The position numbers and the translations under genes are program-made. The notes under the pieces were generated by a model, which worked only from the letters and a program-made list of their open reading frames with translations, was not told the DNA's origin and searched no databases. Source: Candidatus Xianfuyuplasma coldseepsis (GTDB lineage Bacteria; Bacillota_I; Bacilli_A; Izemoplasmatales; Izemoplasmataceae). From it: a stretch of DNA of 64,000 nt. The number at the start of each line of letters is the position of its first letter. Positions within the stretch are counted from its first letter, which is position 1. The stretch covers positions 1,330,698 to 1,394,697 of the forward strand of contig NZ_CP048914.1 in the NCBI RefSeq assembly GCF_014023125.1, written 5' to 3'. This document shows positions 50,200 through 56,405 of this stretch, in pieces.

Positions 50200-51357
50200 A
50201 TGAAAAAAATATCAATCATCATGATATCGATGGTGCTAATTATAGTATTAGCTGCATGTAAAGAGGAGGGGCCGGACGATAATCCGGTTACAAGCTGTAT
50301 TCCTGGTTTCCAAGTAATTGATGGACGATGTGTCGAAATAGAGGATAATGAAGAAGATCCTGTTACATGTGATTTGGGTTACAAAGCAGAAGGAGATTCT
50401 TGTATTGTCGATGAGAATGCGCGGTTCCGTCTTGATGGACGAAATTTCTACATGGATAATGAACCATTCTTTATCAAAGGAATCTGTTGGAATCCAGTTG
50501 GGATCGGTGATGTTCATCCTGCTGGTTTAGATTTTAGTGGCTTTGTAGATGAGGATGCTGATCTGATGCAAGCGGCTGGGATCAACGTTGTAAGAACCTA
50601 TGAACCAATTAAAAGCACAGCGGTGTTGGATACGCTTTTAGAACATGGAATCTATGTGATCAATACCGTGTATCCTTATGGTGGTAATTCGGTGGAGTCG
50701 GTAGTCAATAACATGAGTGATGTCCTTGATCATGAAGCGATTATTATGTGGGCGATTGGAAATGAGTGGAATTACAATGGAATCTATTACGGTTTATCTA
50801 TGAATGAATCGATTGAACGATTAAACGACGTGGCAGCCCGAATTAAAGAAATCGATTCAACACGTCCCGTGACGACGATTTATGGATACTTACCTTCTAC
50901 ATCAACAGTAAATGCCATGCCGGATGTTGATATATGGGGTCTTAATATTTATTCTGGGGCAACGTTTGGAACGATTTTTGCCCAATGGAAAAATATTTCT
51001 GATAAACCGATGTATATCGCCGAATATGGTGCGGATGCATGGAATGCGAATATCGATGCGGAAGATGAAACGTCCCAAGCGTATGCAACGACCCAGTTGA
51101 CACAAGAAATCATTGATAATTCATCGGAGATTTATCCCGATAACACCAGTATTGGGGGAACGATATTTAGTTTTGCAGATGAATGGTGGAAAGACAGCAA
51201 TGGGACACCGGATGTACAAGATAGTGGTGGGATTGCTCCCGGGGGTGGACCGTATCCAGACCAAACATTTAATGAAGAGTTTTGGGGTATTGTCGATATC
51301 TATCGTGAACCTCGTGCCGCGTACTATGCTTTGCAAGCTTTGTATGTTGAAGATTGA
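50200..51357 (+). CDS. Lipoprotein with glycoside hydrolase (GH2-like TIM barrel) domain
   Basis: A secreted lipid-anchored protein: signal peptide with lipobox VLAAC (Cys20). Two short Cys-pair units follow (TSCIPGFQVIDGRC and VTCDLGYKAEGDSC, about residues 31-67). The rest is a TIM barrel of the GH2/GH5 clan, starting FRLDGRNFYMDNEPFFIKGICWNP. Candidate catalytic residues are Glu189 in AIGNEWN (acid/base) and Glu275 in IAEYGADAWN (nucleophile). Similar proteins act as beta-glucan or mannan hydrolases or transglycosidases; the substrate is unknown. It is monocistronic with its own terminator. Confidence 0.8.
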   Translation: MKKISIIMISMVLIIVLAACKEEGPDDNPVTSCIPGFQVIDGRCVEIEDNEEDPVTCDLGYKAEGDSCIVDENARFRLDGRNFYMDNEPFFIKGICWNPVGIGDVHPAGLDFSGFVDEDADLMQAAGINVVRTYEPIKSTAVLDTLLEHGIYVINTVYPYGGNSVESVVNNMSDVLDHEAIIMWAIGNEWNYNGIYYGLSMNESIERLNDVAARIKEIDSTRPVTTIYGYLPSTSTVNAMPDVDIWGLNIYSGATFGTIFAQWKNISDKPMYIAEYGADAWNANIDAEDETSQAYATTQLTQEIIDNSSEIYPDNTSIGGTIFSFADEWWKDSNGTPDVQDSGGIAPGGGPYPDQTFNEEFWGIVDIYREPRAAYYALQALYVED

Positions 51358-52055: not shown

Positions 52056-52495
52056 GAGGATTTGAAAAAGCCAAAGGTTTTGAACACCTAGACATTCCCT
52101 TGCCAGAGCGTAAAACAGAACACAGTGCTGGGTATGACATCTCCATTATCGACGATATTATGATTCCAGCAGGTGCAGTAGCCTTTGGTAAAACAGGACT
52201 AAAAGCCTTCATGCAAGATGGGGAAGTGTTAAAGATTTATCCTCGTAGCAGCTTGGCAAAAAACTATCACTTGACTCTGGGAAATAATGTCGGAATTGTC
52301 GATAAAGATTATTATAATAATCCCGATAATGATGGTCATATAATGATCAGTTTACGTAATTTTGGTCAAAATGATATTATGTTAAGAAAGGGTGAACGTG
52401 TCGCACAAGCGATATTCGAACAATACCTTACTAGTCCCTTTGAAACGGAAGTAAAAGACCGTCGTCAAGGTGGCTTTGGAAGCACTGGAAAATAA
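52052..52495 (+). CDS. dut: dUTP diphosphatase
   Basis: The 147-residue trimeric dUTPase hydrolyses dUTP to dUMP. Motif 1 is HSAGYDIS, motif 2 YPRSSLAKN, motif 3 NNVGIVDKDYYNNPDNDGHI, motif 4 RKGERVAQAIF and motif 5 RRQGGFGSTGK. The GTG start lies in the Nudix stop codon overlap. Confidence 0.93.
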   Translation: MRGFEKAKGFEHLDIPLPERKTEHSAGYDISIIDDIMIPAGAVAFGKTGLKAFMQDGEVLKIYPRSSLAKNYHLTLGNNVGIVDKDYYNNPDNDGHIMISLRNFGQNDIMLRKGERVAQAIFEQYLTSPFETEVKDRRQGGFGSTGK

Positions 52496-52508: not shown

Positions 52509-52536
52509 TTGACTTTAACTGGTCAAGTGATACAAT
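52509..52536 (+). promoter_or_regulatory. Promoter of the cobalamin-controlled operon
   Basis: TTGACT, a 16-base spacer and TACAAT with TGA extension. A dyad CTTGAC-N8-GTCAAG (52508-52527) covers the -35 and could be the end of dut transcription or an operator. Confidence 0.7.
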
Positions 52537-52545
52537 AGAGATAGA

Positions 52546-52795
52546 TGTTAGGTGTCACAGGGTGACATAACAGGGAATTGAGTGCAAGTCTCAAGCTGTC
52601 CCAGCAACCGTAAAACGGACGAACTGCAAGATACCACTGCGTAAGCGGGAAGGTGCATAGTAGGATGAAGTTAAGCCGGTAGACCTACCTAGTATCGAAT
52701 GTACAATACTCCTGGGCATTGAGTAGACGTTTACTATACTAATCTTTTGCGATTAGTATCTTAAATGTGAATCATCCAGGAGGATGGTTTTTTTC
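52546..52795 (+). promoter_or_regulatory. Cobalamin riboswitch with terminator/antiterminator switch
   Basis: The aptamer shows the standard landmarks in order: an ACAGGGAA...GTGCAAGTC...GCTGTCCC region, a GCAACCGTAA segment, the B12 box CCACTG (52634-52639), GGGAAGG (52647-52653), AGGATGA (52662-52668) and AGCCGG...GACC (52674-52685). The switch is also visible. CTCCTGG (52709-52715) can pair with CCAGGAG (52776-52782). This excludes the terminator ATCATCC/GGATGGT (52771-52788), which is followed by a T run. Bound cobalamin should favour termination and shut off the three genes downstream. Confidence 0.95.
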
Positions 52796-52824
52796 TTTAT
52801 TTAGGACAATACAAGGAGGACACA

Positions 52825-54141
52825 ATGAAAAAACTATTCTCGATGATCACGGTATTTTTGCTGGCCATAACAATGGTGGCATGTAGTGATGAAACCGACG
52901 AAACGATCAATGATTTAGAAGCACAAATTAGTGAATTACAAGCAACAAACCAAGCATTAGAAACACAAAACTCCGATTTAGAATCTGCGATTCAGTTGTA
53001 TGAAGACGCTGAAATGGACGTTATTTTTACGACCAAAACAATCGACTTAGAAGGTCATGAAACCGCAATTGTACTCGCATTCAACGATGACCAAGATATT
53101 ACATTAAAGGCTGTTGCCAAAGGATTCTTTAATGCCGATATCACCGAAAGTGAGTATGGTGCATTCGTCAATACGATGAATGATATGAATTTGCCGTATG
53201 GTAGCTATATTGCAATTTATGAGAACGATGAACCAAGTAGTGTTGGAATTGATGACCTCGTTATTGACGATGGTGATGTATTTGAGTTTCGTGTAGTGTG
53301 GTGGGATGTTATCCAGTATGAAGTTTATGAAACATTGCATTTGTTTATTGACAATCATTTGGATGATTATATCTCAACATCGTACATTGATTATAATGTC
53401 TTTTTAGGATGTCAAGGTCTTTGTGATGATGTCTTGACCGACGAAGAGATTGAACTCTATTTAAATGGATTAACGTTGTCTACAACACAAGACTACTTCA
53501 AGGCAATGATGATTGCGAACCATCTCGAAAACGATTCCTTATTACAAACCTATCAAACTGCATTGTATAGCAACGCATCAACGGGACCATATGGACAAAC
53601 CGCAATGACGATGATTGCTCTTGATCATACCAATCCAGATTTTGATTATAGTACATTCATCGATGACGCTATGGTATACTTTGCATCAACCACACCATAT
53701 GATGAAGGTTTGGATACAGGGGGACTCGATCTAGTTGCTCTAAGTCCCTATCTAGATTCGCAAGCAACCCAAGATCTTGTCGATGCATATGTGACATGGA
53801 TTCAATCGGAACAACTACCAAGTGGTGGCATTAAAACACGAGATGTTATGTGGAATGATACAACCTATCCCGGAACCGAAAACGCAGCTTCCATCAGCCA
53901 AGTTATTATCGGATTAATCGCGGTGGGTGTTGATCCTACAGGGGATGAACTTACCGTTGGTTTCAACAATTTAATTACACGTTTGTTAGAGTTTCATCTG
54001 GATGATGGAAGTTTTGATTGGGATCTGACAGATGAGATTGAGAATGATCTATTATTTAGTACACCACAAGCATTTTTAGCACTTAGCACATACTATCATT
54101 ATGTGAATTCGTATGGGGAAATTACTCATTTATATAACTAA
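52825..54141 (+). CDS. Transcobalamin/intrinsic-factor-like lipoprotein (putative cobalamin binder)
   Basis: The 438-residue protein starts with a signal peptide and lipobox MVAC (Cys20). A coiled coil follows at about 28-60. Residues 65-160 look like a DUF4430/transcobalamin beta domain (GSYIAIYENDEPSSVGIDDLVIDDGDVFEF). From about 190 on there is an alpha-alpha toroid with repeated motifs: TGPYGQTAMTMIAL, LDTGGLDLVAL, ENAASISQVIIGLIAVGVDPTG and STPQAFLALSTYYHY. Mammalian intrinsic factor has the same two folds in the reverse order. The riboswitch upstream and the ECF gene downstream point to B12 capture at the cell surface. The B12 assignment is inference; domain calls are by eye. Confidence 0.72.
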   Translation: MKKLFSMITVFLLAITMVACSDETDETINDLEAQISELQATNQALETQNSDLESAIQLYEDAEMDVIFTTKTIDLEGHETAIVLAFNDDQDITLKAVAKGFFNADITESEYGAFVNTMNDMNLPYGSYIAIYENDEPSSVGIDDLVIDDGDVFEFRVVWWDVIQYEVYETLHLFIDNHLDDYISTSYIDYNVFLGCQGLCDDVLTDEEIELYLNGLTLSTTQDYFKAMMIANHLENDSLLQTYQTALYSNASTGPYGQTAMTMIALDHTNPDFDYSTFIDDAMVYFASTTPYDEGLDTGGLDLVALSPYLDSQATQDLVDAYVTWIQSEQLPSGGIKTRDVMWNDTTYPGTENAASISQVIIGLIAVGVDPTGDELTVGFNNLITRLLEFHLDDGSFDWDLTDEIENDLLFSTPQAFLALSTYYHYVNSYGEITHLYN

Positions 54142-54160
54142 TTTTTAAGGAGTCTTGGAT

Positions 54161-54577
54161 ATGAAGAAAATCATGTTTACAATCATTGCAATTGGTGTTG
54201 CAGTGTCTGCGTTTTTCATCCAAGATTACCTTCGACAAAACGATGAGCTTGGTACGATAACGATCGTACTTATCAACGAACTTGAGGAAACCACAACGAC
54301 GGAAATAGAGTTTACTGAAGACGATGATTTACTCTCATTGATGCGGGTACATTTCGATCTTGAATGTGCCGATATGAACTATCAAAAAACAACTTGTGAG
54401 AATGCACGTATGGGAGGTAACATCCTCCTTCGTATTGATCAACTAGATACCGATTGGACTAATAATTACATTGGGATCTATGTGGATAATCAATACAGCA
54501 ACTATGGCATCGATGATATTCTCCTTATCGATGGAGCAACGTATACCTTTGAATATACCGAAGTAGGTGAAGAATAG
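54161..54577 (+). CDS. Membrane-anchored DUF4430 (transcobalamin C-terminal-like) protein
   Basis: The 138-residue protein has an N-terminal signal anchor (residues 3-21) without a lipobox Cys. Its outer part is a single DUF4430-like domain: DLLSLMRVHFDLEC...GGNILLRIDQLDTDWTNNYIGIYVDNQYSNYGIDDILLIDGATYTFEY. Two cysteines (DLEC and TTCEN) may form a disulfide. In transcobalamins this fold is the lid over the corrin ring. ATG 54161 follows AAGGAG; an in-frame TTG lies just upstream. It sits between the lipoprotein and the S component in the B12-controlled unit. Confidence 0.75.
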   Translation: MKKIMFTIIAIGVAVSAFFIQDYLRQNDELGTITIVLINELEETTTTEIEFTEDDDLLSLMRVHFDLECADMNYQKTTCENARMGGNILLRIDQLDTDWTNNYIGIYVDNQYSNYGIDDILLIDGATYTFEYTEVGEE

Positions 54578-55108
54578 ATGAAGACAAAACGCTTATTAAT
54601 GATTGCCTTTGCAGTCACCATCACATTTGTCCAAGAACAGATGTTTTTGATACTACCTCAAGTTCAATTGACGATTGTTTTGATGTTTGTCTTTGCGAGT
54701 ATCTTAACGTATAAAGAAAGTTTTATGTACATTACTGTTTATGTGATATTGGACAATTTATATTTGGGTGGGTTTAATCCACTCAATGCGATTCCGATGT
54801 TTATTATGTGGAACACGATTCCATACATTTACAATATCGTATTACGTCGCACAGAAGATGAAGCAAAGATTGCGAAAGCCGCATTTGTCTTTGGCTTCTT
54901 ATACAGTTGGAGTTTCATTCCCGGAGCAATCCTACTGTATGGATTTGGGAATGTATGGCAATACTATATCCTCGCCGATATCCCGTGGGAAATTGCGCTT
55001 GCAGTCGTCGGATATGTCAGTGTCTTATGGGCCTATAAACCACTGGTAAACATTGTGAAACAACTCGATCAACAAACGACATTATCACGTCAAAAAGCGT
55101 ACGAATAA
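54578..55108 (+). CDS. ECF-type transporter S component (putative cobalamin)
   Basis: The 176-residue membrane protein has about six helices, starting KTKRLLMIAFAVTITFVQEQMFLILPQVQLTIVLMFVF, with LDNLYLGGFNPLNAIPMFIMWNTIPYI typical of ECF substrate-binding subunits. It would bind the substrate in the membrane and dock onto a shared EcfAA'T module encoded elsewhere. Control by a cobalamin riboswitch suggests cobalamin or a corrinoid precursor (a CbrT-like role). Family assignment is tentative because these proteins diverge strongly. It starts directly after the DUF4430 gene and ends at a terminator. Confidence 0.65.
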   Translation: MKTKRLLMIAFAVTITFVQEQMFLILPQVQLTIVLMFVFASILTYKESFMYITVYVILDNLYLGGFNPLNAIPMFIMWNTIPYIYNIVLRRTEDEAKIAKAAFVFGFLYSWSFIPGAILLYGFGNVWQYYILADIPWEIALAVVGYVSVLWAYKPLVNIVKQLDQQTTLSRQKAYE

Positions 55109-55133
55109 GACTGCAGTTGTTGTAGTCTTTTTG
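55107..55133 (+). terminator. Terminator of the B12-controlled operon
   Basis: AAGACTGCA pairs with TGTAGTCTT (one G-U) around GTTGT, followed by Ts. Confidence 0.8.
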
Positions 55134-55170
55134 TTTTTGCTCTTTATAATAATAAAGATAACGATTTTAC

Positions 55171-55313: not shown

Positions 55314-56405
55314 ATGGGTGTAATCTCAATGAAACAGCTACTTGAAGCTGGTGTTCATTTTGGACATCAAACCCGCAGATGGAATCCAAAGATGGATCCG
55401 TATATTTATACGAGCCGTGGTGGAATCCATATTATCGACTTGCAAAAAACAGTCGTCTTATTCGAGGAAGCTTACCAAAAACTACTCGAAGTTGCTAAAA
55501 ATGGTGGGAAATTATTATTTGTTGGTACCAAGAAACAAGCTCGTGACGTTGTCCGTGCTGAAGCCGAACGTTCGGGACAATTTTATGTCACACAACGTTG
55601 GTTAGGGGGAACTCTAACAAACTTTAAAACGATTCGTCGTAGTATTCGTAAATTACACGATCTACACCGAATGGAAAACGATGGAACCTTTGATCGCTTA
55701 ACCAAAAAAGAAGTCATCGGACTTCGCAAGGAAATGGAACGTCTTGAAAAATTCCTAAGTGGAATTAAAGACATGAGAACATTACCTGAAGCGGTATTCG
55801 TTGTTGATCCAATGCATGAAAAAAATGCAGTATTGGAAGCGAAAAAATTAGGTATTCCCGTATATGGAATCGTTGATACCAACTGTGATCCAGATATGGT
55901 AGATGTCATTATTCCTGGGAATGATGATGCAATCAGAGCCATTAAATTAATTGCTGGAAAATTTGCCGATGCATTTATCATCGGTGCTGGTGGCGAAGTG
56001 GAAGAAGTTGTTGAAACAACCGAACCTGCAAAAGATACACGTCCACCACGTAAACCACGTCCTGAAAGACGTCAAGAAAAACCAGAAACCAAGCAACCAA
56101 AAGTAGACAAACCGGAACCGAAAAAAGAAGCGAAAGCAGAACCTAAAAAAGAGGTAAAAGCTGCTCCTAAAAAGGAAGCAAAACCGGAACCGAAAAAAGA
56201 AGCAAAAGCAGAACCTAAAAAAGAGGTAAAAGCTGCTCCTAAAAAAGAAGCTCCTAAAAAAGAAGAACCAGTTCAAGAAGTTGCGGCAGAACAAGTAGAC
56301 CTAGATAGTTTAACAGTTAAAGATTTAAGATCTTTAGCAAAAGAACGTGGTCTGACTGGTTATTCAAAACTGAAAAAAGCGGAATTAATTGACGCTTTGA
56401 AGTAA
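55314..56405 (+). CDS. rpsB: Ribosomal protein S2 with a long repetitive C-terminal extension and SAP/Rho_N-like end
   Basis: Residues 1-235 are a normal S2: [38 protein letters not shown] and [19 protein letters not shown]. About 130 residues are added. First comes a Pro/Lys/Glu-rich low-complexity region ([17 protein letters not shown]...) with a 24-residue unit repeated exactly twice at 56109-56252. A 35-residue helical end ([35 protein letters not shown]) resembles the SAP or Rho N-terminal fold used for nucleic acid binding. S2 normally ends near 230-260 residues. The start follows AAGGAGG. Confidence 0.93.
56109..56252 (+). repeat. Two tandem 72-bp repeats inside rpsB
   Basis: Unit 1 is 56109-56180 and unit 2 is 56181-56252. 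They differ at few third positions only and encode [20 protein letters not shown] plus KKEA, suggesting recent duplication. Confidence 0.9.

Follow-up and report, generated by a model that had tools for sequence, protein, structure and literature searches.

Three genes behind a cobalamin riboswitch in the deep-sea bacterium Candidatus Xianfuyuplasma coldseepsis raise the question of how this organism captures vitamin B12, and of what a lipoprotein with transcobalamin-like domains is doing in front of an importer. In the usual description of ECF transporters, the S component, embedded in the membrane, captures the vitamin directly. Analysis of the 64,000-nucleotide stretch of the genome that contains the three genes (the window) indicated that the system most likely combines an importer of the CbrT type with a transcobalamin-like lipoprotein for capture.

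Operon structure and predicted riboswitch control

The operon is compact (52509-55129 of the window, forward strand) and lies between a dUTPase-like gene that ends at 52495 and rpsB, which starts at 55314. Its three open reading frames, called T, D and S here, were confirmed in the window (Table 1), and a ribosome-binding site (aaggagg) follows the riboswitch terminator. The promoter-like site agrees with the consensus at 10 of 12 positions and is preceded by TG; such sites occurred no more often than in shuffled sequences.

Table 1. Positions of the features of the cobalamin operon in the window
Feature	Position	Strand	Basis and details
Promoter-like site, sigma-70 type, TTGACT-16-TACAAT	52509..52536	+	Consensus match only
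Cobalamin riboswitch aptamer, RF00174	52533..52706	+	97 bits, E 6e-23, full length
Intrinsic terminator of the riboswitch expression platform	52769..52790	+	Stem and T-run; alternative pairing with ~52709-52716 (antiterminator)
T, lipoprotein, 438 aa	52825..54141	+	Lipobox Cys20; coiled coil 24-61; DUF4430/transcobalamin-type beta domain ~66-159; alpha/alpha toroid ~160-438
D, membrane-anchored DUF4430 protein, CbrS-like, 138 aa from ATG	54161..54577	+	Open reading frame; DUF4430 in homologues
S, CbrT-like ECF S component, 176 aa	54578..55108	+	6fnp_A E 9e-5; hhalign E 4.8e-12; ECF S fold Z 10.6-14.0
Intrinsic terminator closing the operon	55107..55129	+	Fold of 55090-55140: -14.3 kcal/mol, z -2.5

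The riboswitch covered positions 1-189 of the 189 in the RF00174 model, for which the gathering score is 31.5, and was the sole match in the genome, a single contig of 1,958,905 bases. Folded alone, the terminator hairpin had an energy of -9.9 kcal/mol. In the preferred fold of 52700-52800 (z -4.8), ACUCCUGG was paired with the terminator's CCAGGAGG and the terminator was broken, and these predicted structures point to an antiterminator/terminator choice of the usual kind. The terminator stem (CCATCC..GGATGG) and its T-run are conserved, being retained in most of family f1. High cobalamin would let the terminator form and turn the operon off, while at low cobalamin the antiterminator would form and the three genes would be read. 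A preliminary description made from the sequence alone had reported a clear cobalamin riboswitch with a terminator ahead of three genes, and all of these elements were recovered.

The host strain, zrk13, is an Izemoplasma that lacks a cell wall, is strictly anaerobic and has been cultured (PMC8397711). The same description had called the system a Gram-positive equivalent; because the host is wall-less, the term fits by ancestry only and does not imply an ordinary Gram-positive cell.

Two other genes near the operon were noted. The ribosomal protein S2 specified by rpsB (55314-56405) has a long linker of Lys/Glu/Pro/Ala-rich repeats and a SAP-like C-terminal segment, and the gene at 50200-51357 encodes a lipoprotein-like product with a GH2-type TIM barrel (PF02836 E 1e-14).

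S is related to CbrT

Single-sequence family searches with S gave no match, and NCBIfam offered no useful name for S, D or T. When a profile of 39 S homologues was compared with the PDB, the only significant match was 6fnp_A, over positions 2-164. 6FNP is the structure of ECF-CbrT (PMC5997447), and the 182-residue length of this chain, which is listed as "membrane protein", together with the match itself suggests that it is CbrT. Profile-profile comparison of S with 6fnp_A and ten CbrT-like proteins of other Bacilli (hhalign) gave a probability of 97.5 over 161 columns. The best 21 structural matches of the AF2 model of S (mean pLDDT 91.6) were all ECF S components, and the first unrelated fold followed at Z 9.3. 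Foldseek alone had no CbrT among its matches to S, and its E-values were weak; the relation to CbrT came from the sequence profile and VIA-align. S therefore had the fold of the small ECF S component to which it had initially been likened, and its homology indicates in addition a distant but specific relationship to the cobalamin S component CbrT.

EcfA (TIGR04520) and EcfA' (TIGR04521), both above cut-off, and EcfT are encoded by adjacent genes elsewhere in the host genome (L137). S would carry cobalamin across the membrane with this shared EcfA-EcfA'-EcfT module, and we infer that the EcfT of this genome is its partner. The evidence that S imports cobalamin is good, and this role can be considered very likely.

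Domains of D and T

In D alone the DUF4430 match (E 4e-3) fell just under the Pfam cut-off, and the domain was found in 23 of the 25 D homologues (E up to 1, best E 1e-7). The N-terminus of D reads as a transmembrane-like helix in the window's family and as a lipobox-like segment in the sister family, which agrees with the initial view of this protein as a membrane-anchored DUF4430 protein.

The lipid-attachment cysteine of T was present in all 29 aligned homologues, and the AF2 model (mean pLDDT 87.8) consisted of a long N-terminal helix or coiled coil followed by a beta domain and a toroid. DUF4430 was again just under the Pfam cut-off in the window's protein alone (E 8e-4) and was detected in 27 of 29 homologues (best E 4e-14). 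A PDB search with the T sequence alone had no match, and a viral structure library gave nothing relevant. The best Foldseek matches of the beta domain in the PDB were 3u7z (E 2.8e-5), a solved protein also reached by sequence from the T profile, and 5no0 (E 3.6e-5) and 5np4 (E 5.6e-5), the human transcobalamin beta domain without and with cyanocobalamin.

The best structural match of the toroid was squalene-hopene cyclase (Z 19.9); GH88/GH105 enzymes or epimerases were matched at Z 16-18 and intrinsic factor (3kq4) at Z 16.3, with an rmsd of 3.4 over 232 aligned residues. The profile of the whole T protein touched transcobalamin at E about 1, and when the PDB was searched with a profile of the toroid alone, no transcobalamin was recovered. 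Judging from the model, the toroid appears to resemble intrinsic factor in fold only, and the alpha/alpha toroid is a common fold. In the animal carriers the toroid comes first and the beta domain second. The structural comparison that the preliminary description had proposed thus confirmed a lipoprotein with a transcobalamin-type beta domain and a toroid, but with the order of the two domains reversed and no clear sequence link from the toroid to the animal proteins, with which it may or may not share an origin.

Longer T-like proteins (631-633 aa) were encoded in two genomes, G008 (L100) and G006 (L099). The one from G008 had three DUF4430 matches, indicating a duplicated beta domain.

Conservation of the operon

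RF00174 was present in 75 of the 90 genomes of the order. Among the 69 riboswitch loci of the same order that could be read downstream, D and S followed the riboswitch in 58 and T was also present in 39, to which genome G082 adds one T; several of the remaining riboswitch loci stop at contig borders. At some loci D or T is missing because the contig ends there or because the ORF caller chose an antisense frame (for example in G082 and G067). DUF4430 and the riboswitch occurred together in 65 of the 90 genomes, DUF4430 only in 1, the riboswitch only in 10, and neither in 14 (Fisher p 3e-9, uncorrected for the shared ancestry of the genomes). Eighty of the 90 DUF4430 matches were within 3 kb of a riboswitch. 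This survey of DUF4430 genes for cobalamin riboswitches and ECF neighbours, which had been suggested at the outset, showed a consistent link to cobalamin riboswitches.

The named relatives in the order include Izimaplasma HR2 and ZiA1. Sister family f2 had mostly riboswitch-D-S loci without T, and T is therefore not essential to the core of the system. A third family, of which seven genomes were searched, had no riboswitch and no DUF4430. The riboswitch-T-D-S arrangement recurred in Acholeplasmatales, for example in Peloplasma aerotolerans, with RF00174 in 16 of the 17 such loci searched.

A search with the CbrT sequence identified other Bacilli in which a toroid protein, a DUF4430 protein and a CbrT-like S component are encoded in a row. 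In this split version, the toroid protein is secreted or surface-anchored and matches PF00432 above the cut-off in one case and below it in others, and the DUF4430 protein has domain E-values of 1e-17 to 7e-20 in those scanned. Six of the 11 split loci had a cobalamin riboswitch, and the other five were behind genes that read as metF- and metH-like. The toroids of these Bacilli were homologous to that of T (probability 96.7, E 4e-10). Toroid, beta domain and CbrT thus make up a cobalamin set that recurs, with its parts fused in one lineage and separate in others.

Cobalamin requirement and proposed uptake mechanism

Searched family by family, the host genome encoded an adenosyltransferase and, all above equivalog cut-offs, glutamate mutase S, L and E, lysine 5,6-aminomutase alpha and beta, and the D-ornithine 4,5-aminomutase OraE. 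CbiC, the single biosynthesis marker searched, was absent from the genome. Glutamate mutase and the lysine 5,6- and ornithine 4,5-aminomutases are AdoCbl-dependent, and this gene content fits a B12 auxotroph with amino acid fermentation.

The host and its relatives appear to switch on a three-gene set, probably for capture and import of B12, when B12 is scarce. We consider it likely that the operon is a cobalamin uptake system in which T captures the vitamin under riboswitch control, D hands it over and S imports it with EcfAA'T. T, a predicted surface lipoprotein, would use its beta domain and toroid to bind cobalamin in the manner of intrinsic factor and transcobalamin. Next to the importer, D, another membrane-anchored protein with a beta domain, would receive or hold the cobalamin and pass it to S, and the imported cobalamin would be adenosylated to serve the glutamate, lysine and ornithine mutases. 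Binding of cobalamin by T and D is probable, and the order of handover from T to D to S is a guess.

A narrower proposal, which we put forward tentatively and rate somewhat below an even chance, is that T is the genuine equivalent of transcobalamin in bacteria, its beta lid and toroid closing over cobalamin for delivery through D to the ECF S component. The pair of toroid and beta domain, split or fused across Bacilli, may represent the ancestral set of parts from which the animal B12 carriers were built.

The operon could instead encode an ordinary ECF-CbrT importer, with D and T as helper proteins that have no part in cobalamin binding, D stabilising or anchoring S and T acting as a scaffold or binding a surface partner. 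CbrT binds cobalamin unaided with nanomolar affinity and transports it with no more than the ECF module (PMC5997447), which means that import could in principle do without a capture protein; the T-less loci of f2 and the generic nature of the toroid fold point the same way. Yet D stays with S across very divergent lineages, and the type of beta domain that contacts cobalamin in transcobalamin occurs in two separate products of the operon, which leaves the helper explanation unlikely. It is less likely still that the system imports another corrinoid or a precursor, such as cobinamide or a cobamide with another lower ligand, in place of cobalamin: CbrT also transports cobinamide (PMC5997447) and the riboswitch reports cobalamin status only, but CbiC, the one marker searched, is missing from the genome, and the AdoCbl enzymes require the finished cofactor. 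An enzymatic role for T, as a relative of terpene cyclases or of glycoside hydrolases or lyases placed in the operon, is suggested by the top matches of its toroid and was rejected as highly improbable, since no conserved DxDD motif was found in the 29 homologues and T is a secreted lipoprotein with DUF4430 in a cobalamin-controlled operon.

Comparison with known cobalamin uptake systems

The proposed uptake of cobalamin by capture on T and import by S has its closest parallels in lactobacilli. The Lactobacillus delbrueckii cluster is nrdJ-cbrS-cbrT-pduO (PMC5997447), and for L. rhamnosus a DUF4430 protein adjoining rtpR is recorded, as is the product name "additional lipoprotein component of putative cobalamin ECF transporter" (PMC9963975). 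Considered with the loci analyzed here, these two reports suggest that cbrS encodes a DUF4430 protein. The present operon shares with these systems an S component related to CbrT over its whole length and a DUF4430 gene adjoining the S gene, but it differs in the riboswitch control, in the extra lipoprotein with beta domain and toroid, and in a D protein held by a transmembrane helix. In the freely accessible papers covered, DUF4430 was connected with bacterial B12 uptake by annotation only (PMC9963975; cbrS, PMC5997447). The preliminary description had known of no experimental account of this exact trio; T as a capture protein seems indeed to be undescribed, whereas the D-S pair is already known in outline as the predicted cobalamin ECF unit cbrS-cbrT.

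T resembles transcobalamin, intrinsic factor and haptocorrin in combining a beta domain of the same fold with an alpha/alpha toroid in one polypeptide, in a cobalamin context, and differs from them in being a membrane lipoprotein whose binding of cobalamin is predicted. BtuG of Bacteroides is a surface lipoprotein that captures B12 for an importer, a seven-bladed beta-propeller working with the outer-membrane protein BtuB (PMC6143338); the idea of capture on a surface lipoprotein followed by handover is common to BtuG and the present proposal, whereas the latter involves a toroid and DUF4430 with an ECF S component. Riboswitch-controlled cobalamin import is likewise shared with BtuFCD, which two relatives (G046 and G047) have in a second riboswitch operon, but the genome studied here has no BtuC-type permease. 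The lack of BtuFCD-type genes noted earlier for the window held genome-wide: the lone FecCD match was rejected as BtuC, being an ABC-3 metal permease by its better fit (PF00950 E 2e-56 versus PF01032 E 1e-10).

If the proposed mechanism is correct, this ECF importer would have an extracellular substrate-binding protein of its own, and a conserved, riboswitch-controlled capture lipoprotein would add an extracellular step with domain types that animals use for B12 carriage. It would also give DUF4430 a function, account for B12 capture in Izemoplasmatales and Acholeplasmatales (B12-dependent amino acid mutases are encoded at least in the present host), and provide a bacterial relative bearing on how intrinsic factor and transcobalamin arose. 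Since the host strain is in culture, the system is open to testing.

Other genes associated with the riboswitch in related genomes

Two riboswitch loci of the order drive btuF-btuC-btuD-like genes, with the families fully checked in one. These are the second cobalamin riboswitches of G046:C2 (L117) and G047:C26 (L119), where genes that read as cobQ- and cbiB-like follow, and apparent T matches on both contigs were rejected as BtuF-type binding proteins. Cobalamin riboswitches in four genomes (G052:C12, L115; G049:C265, L116; G045:C20, L072; G080:C1, L094) drive a protein of 165-190 aa (..CCPFLYEESKKVEFEILTDKLASQLG..ELVYHLNGSIRGK..), perhaps a relative of adenosyltransferase. Behind the riboswitch at G080:C1:23547 (L094), in a genome of the same genus, come a lipoprotein with a coiled coil, another membrane-anchored protein and an S-like protein whose divergence keeps it from matching the profiles at genome level, and this system is perhaps a replaced version.

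S-like proteins with in-frame TGA codons, which fits the mycoplasma-type reading of TGA as Trp, were found in G122, G123, G127, G159, G162, G192, G201 and G237. At six loci of Acholeplasmataceae (L227, L234, L239, L240, L245 and L246), a lysine riboswitch lay just beyond the operon, at a distance of about 2-4 kb downstream from the cobalamin riboswitch.
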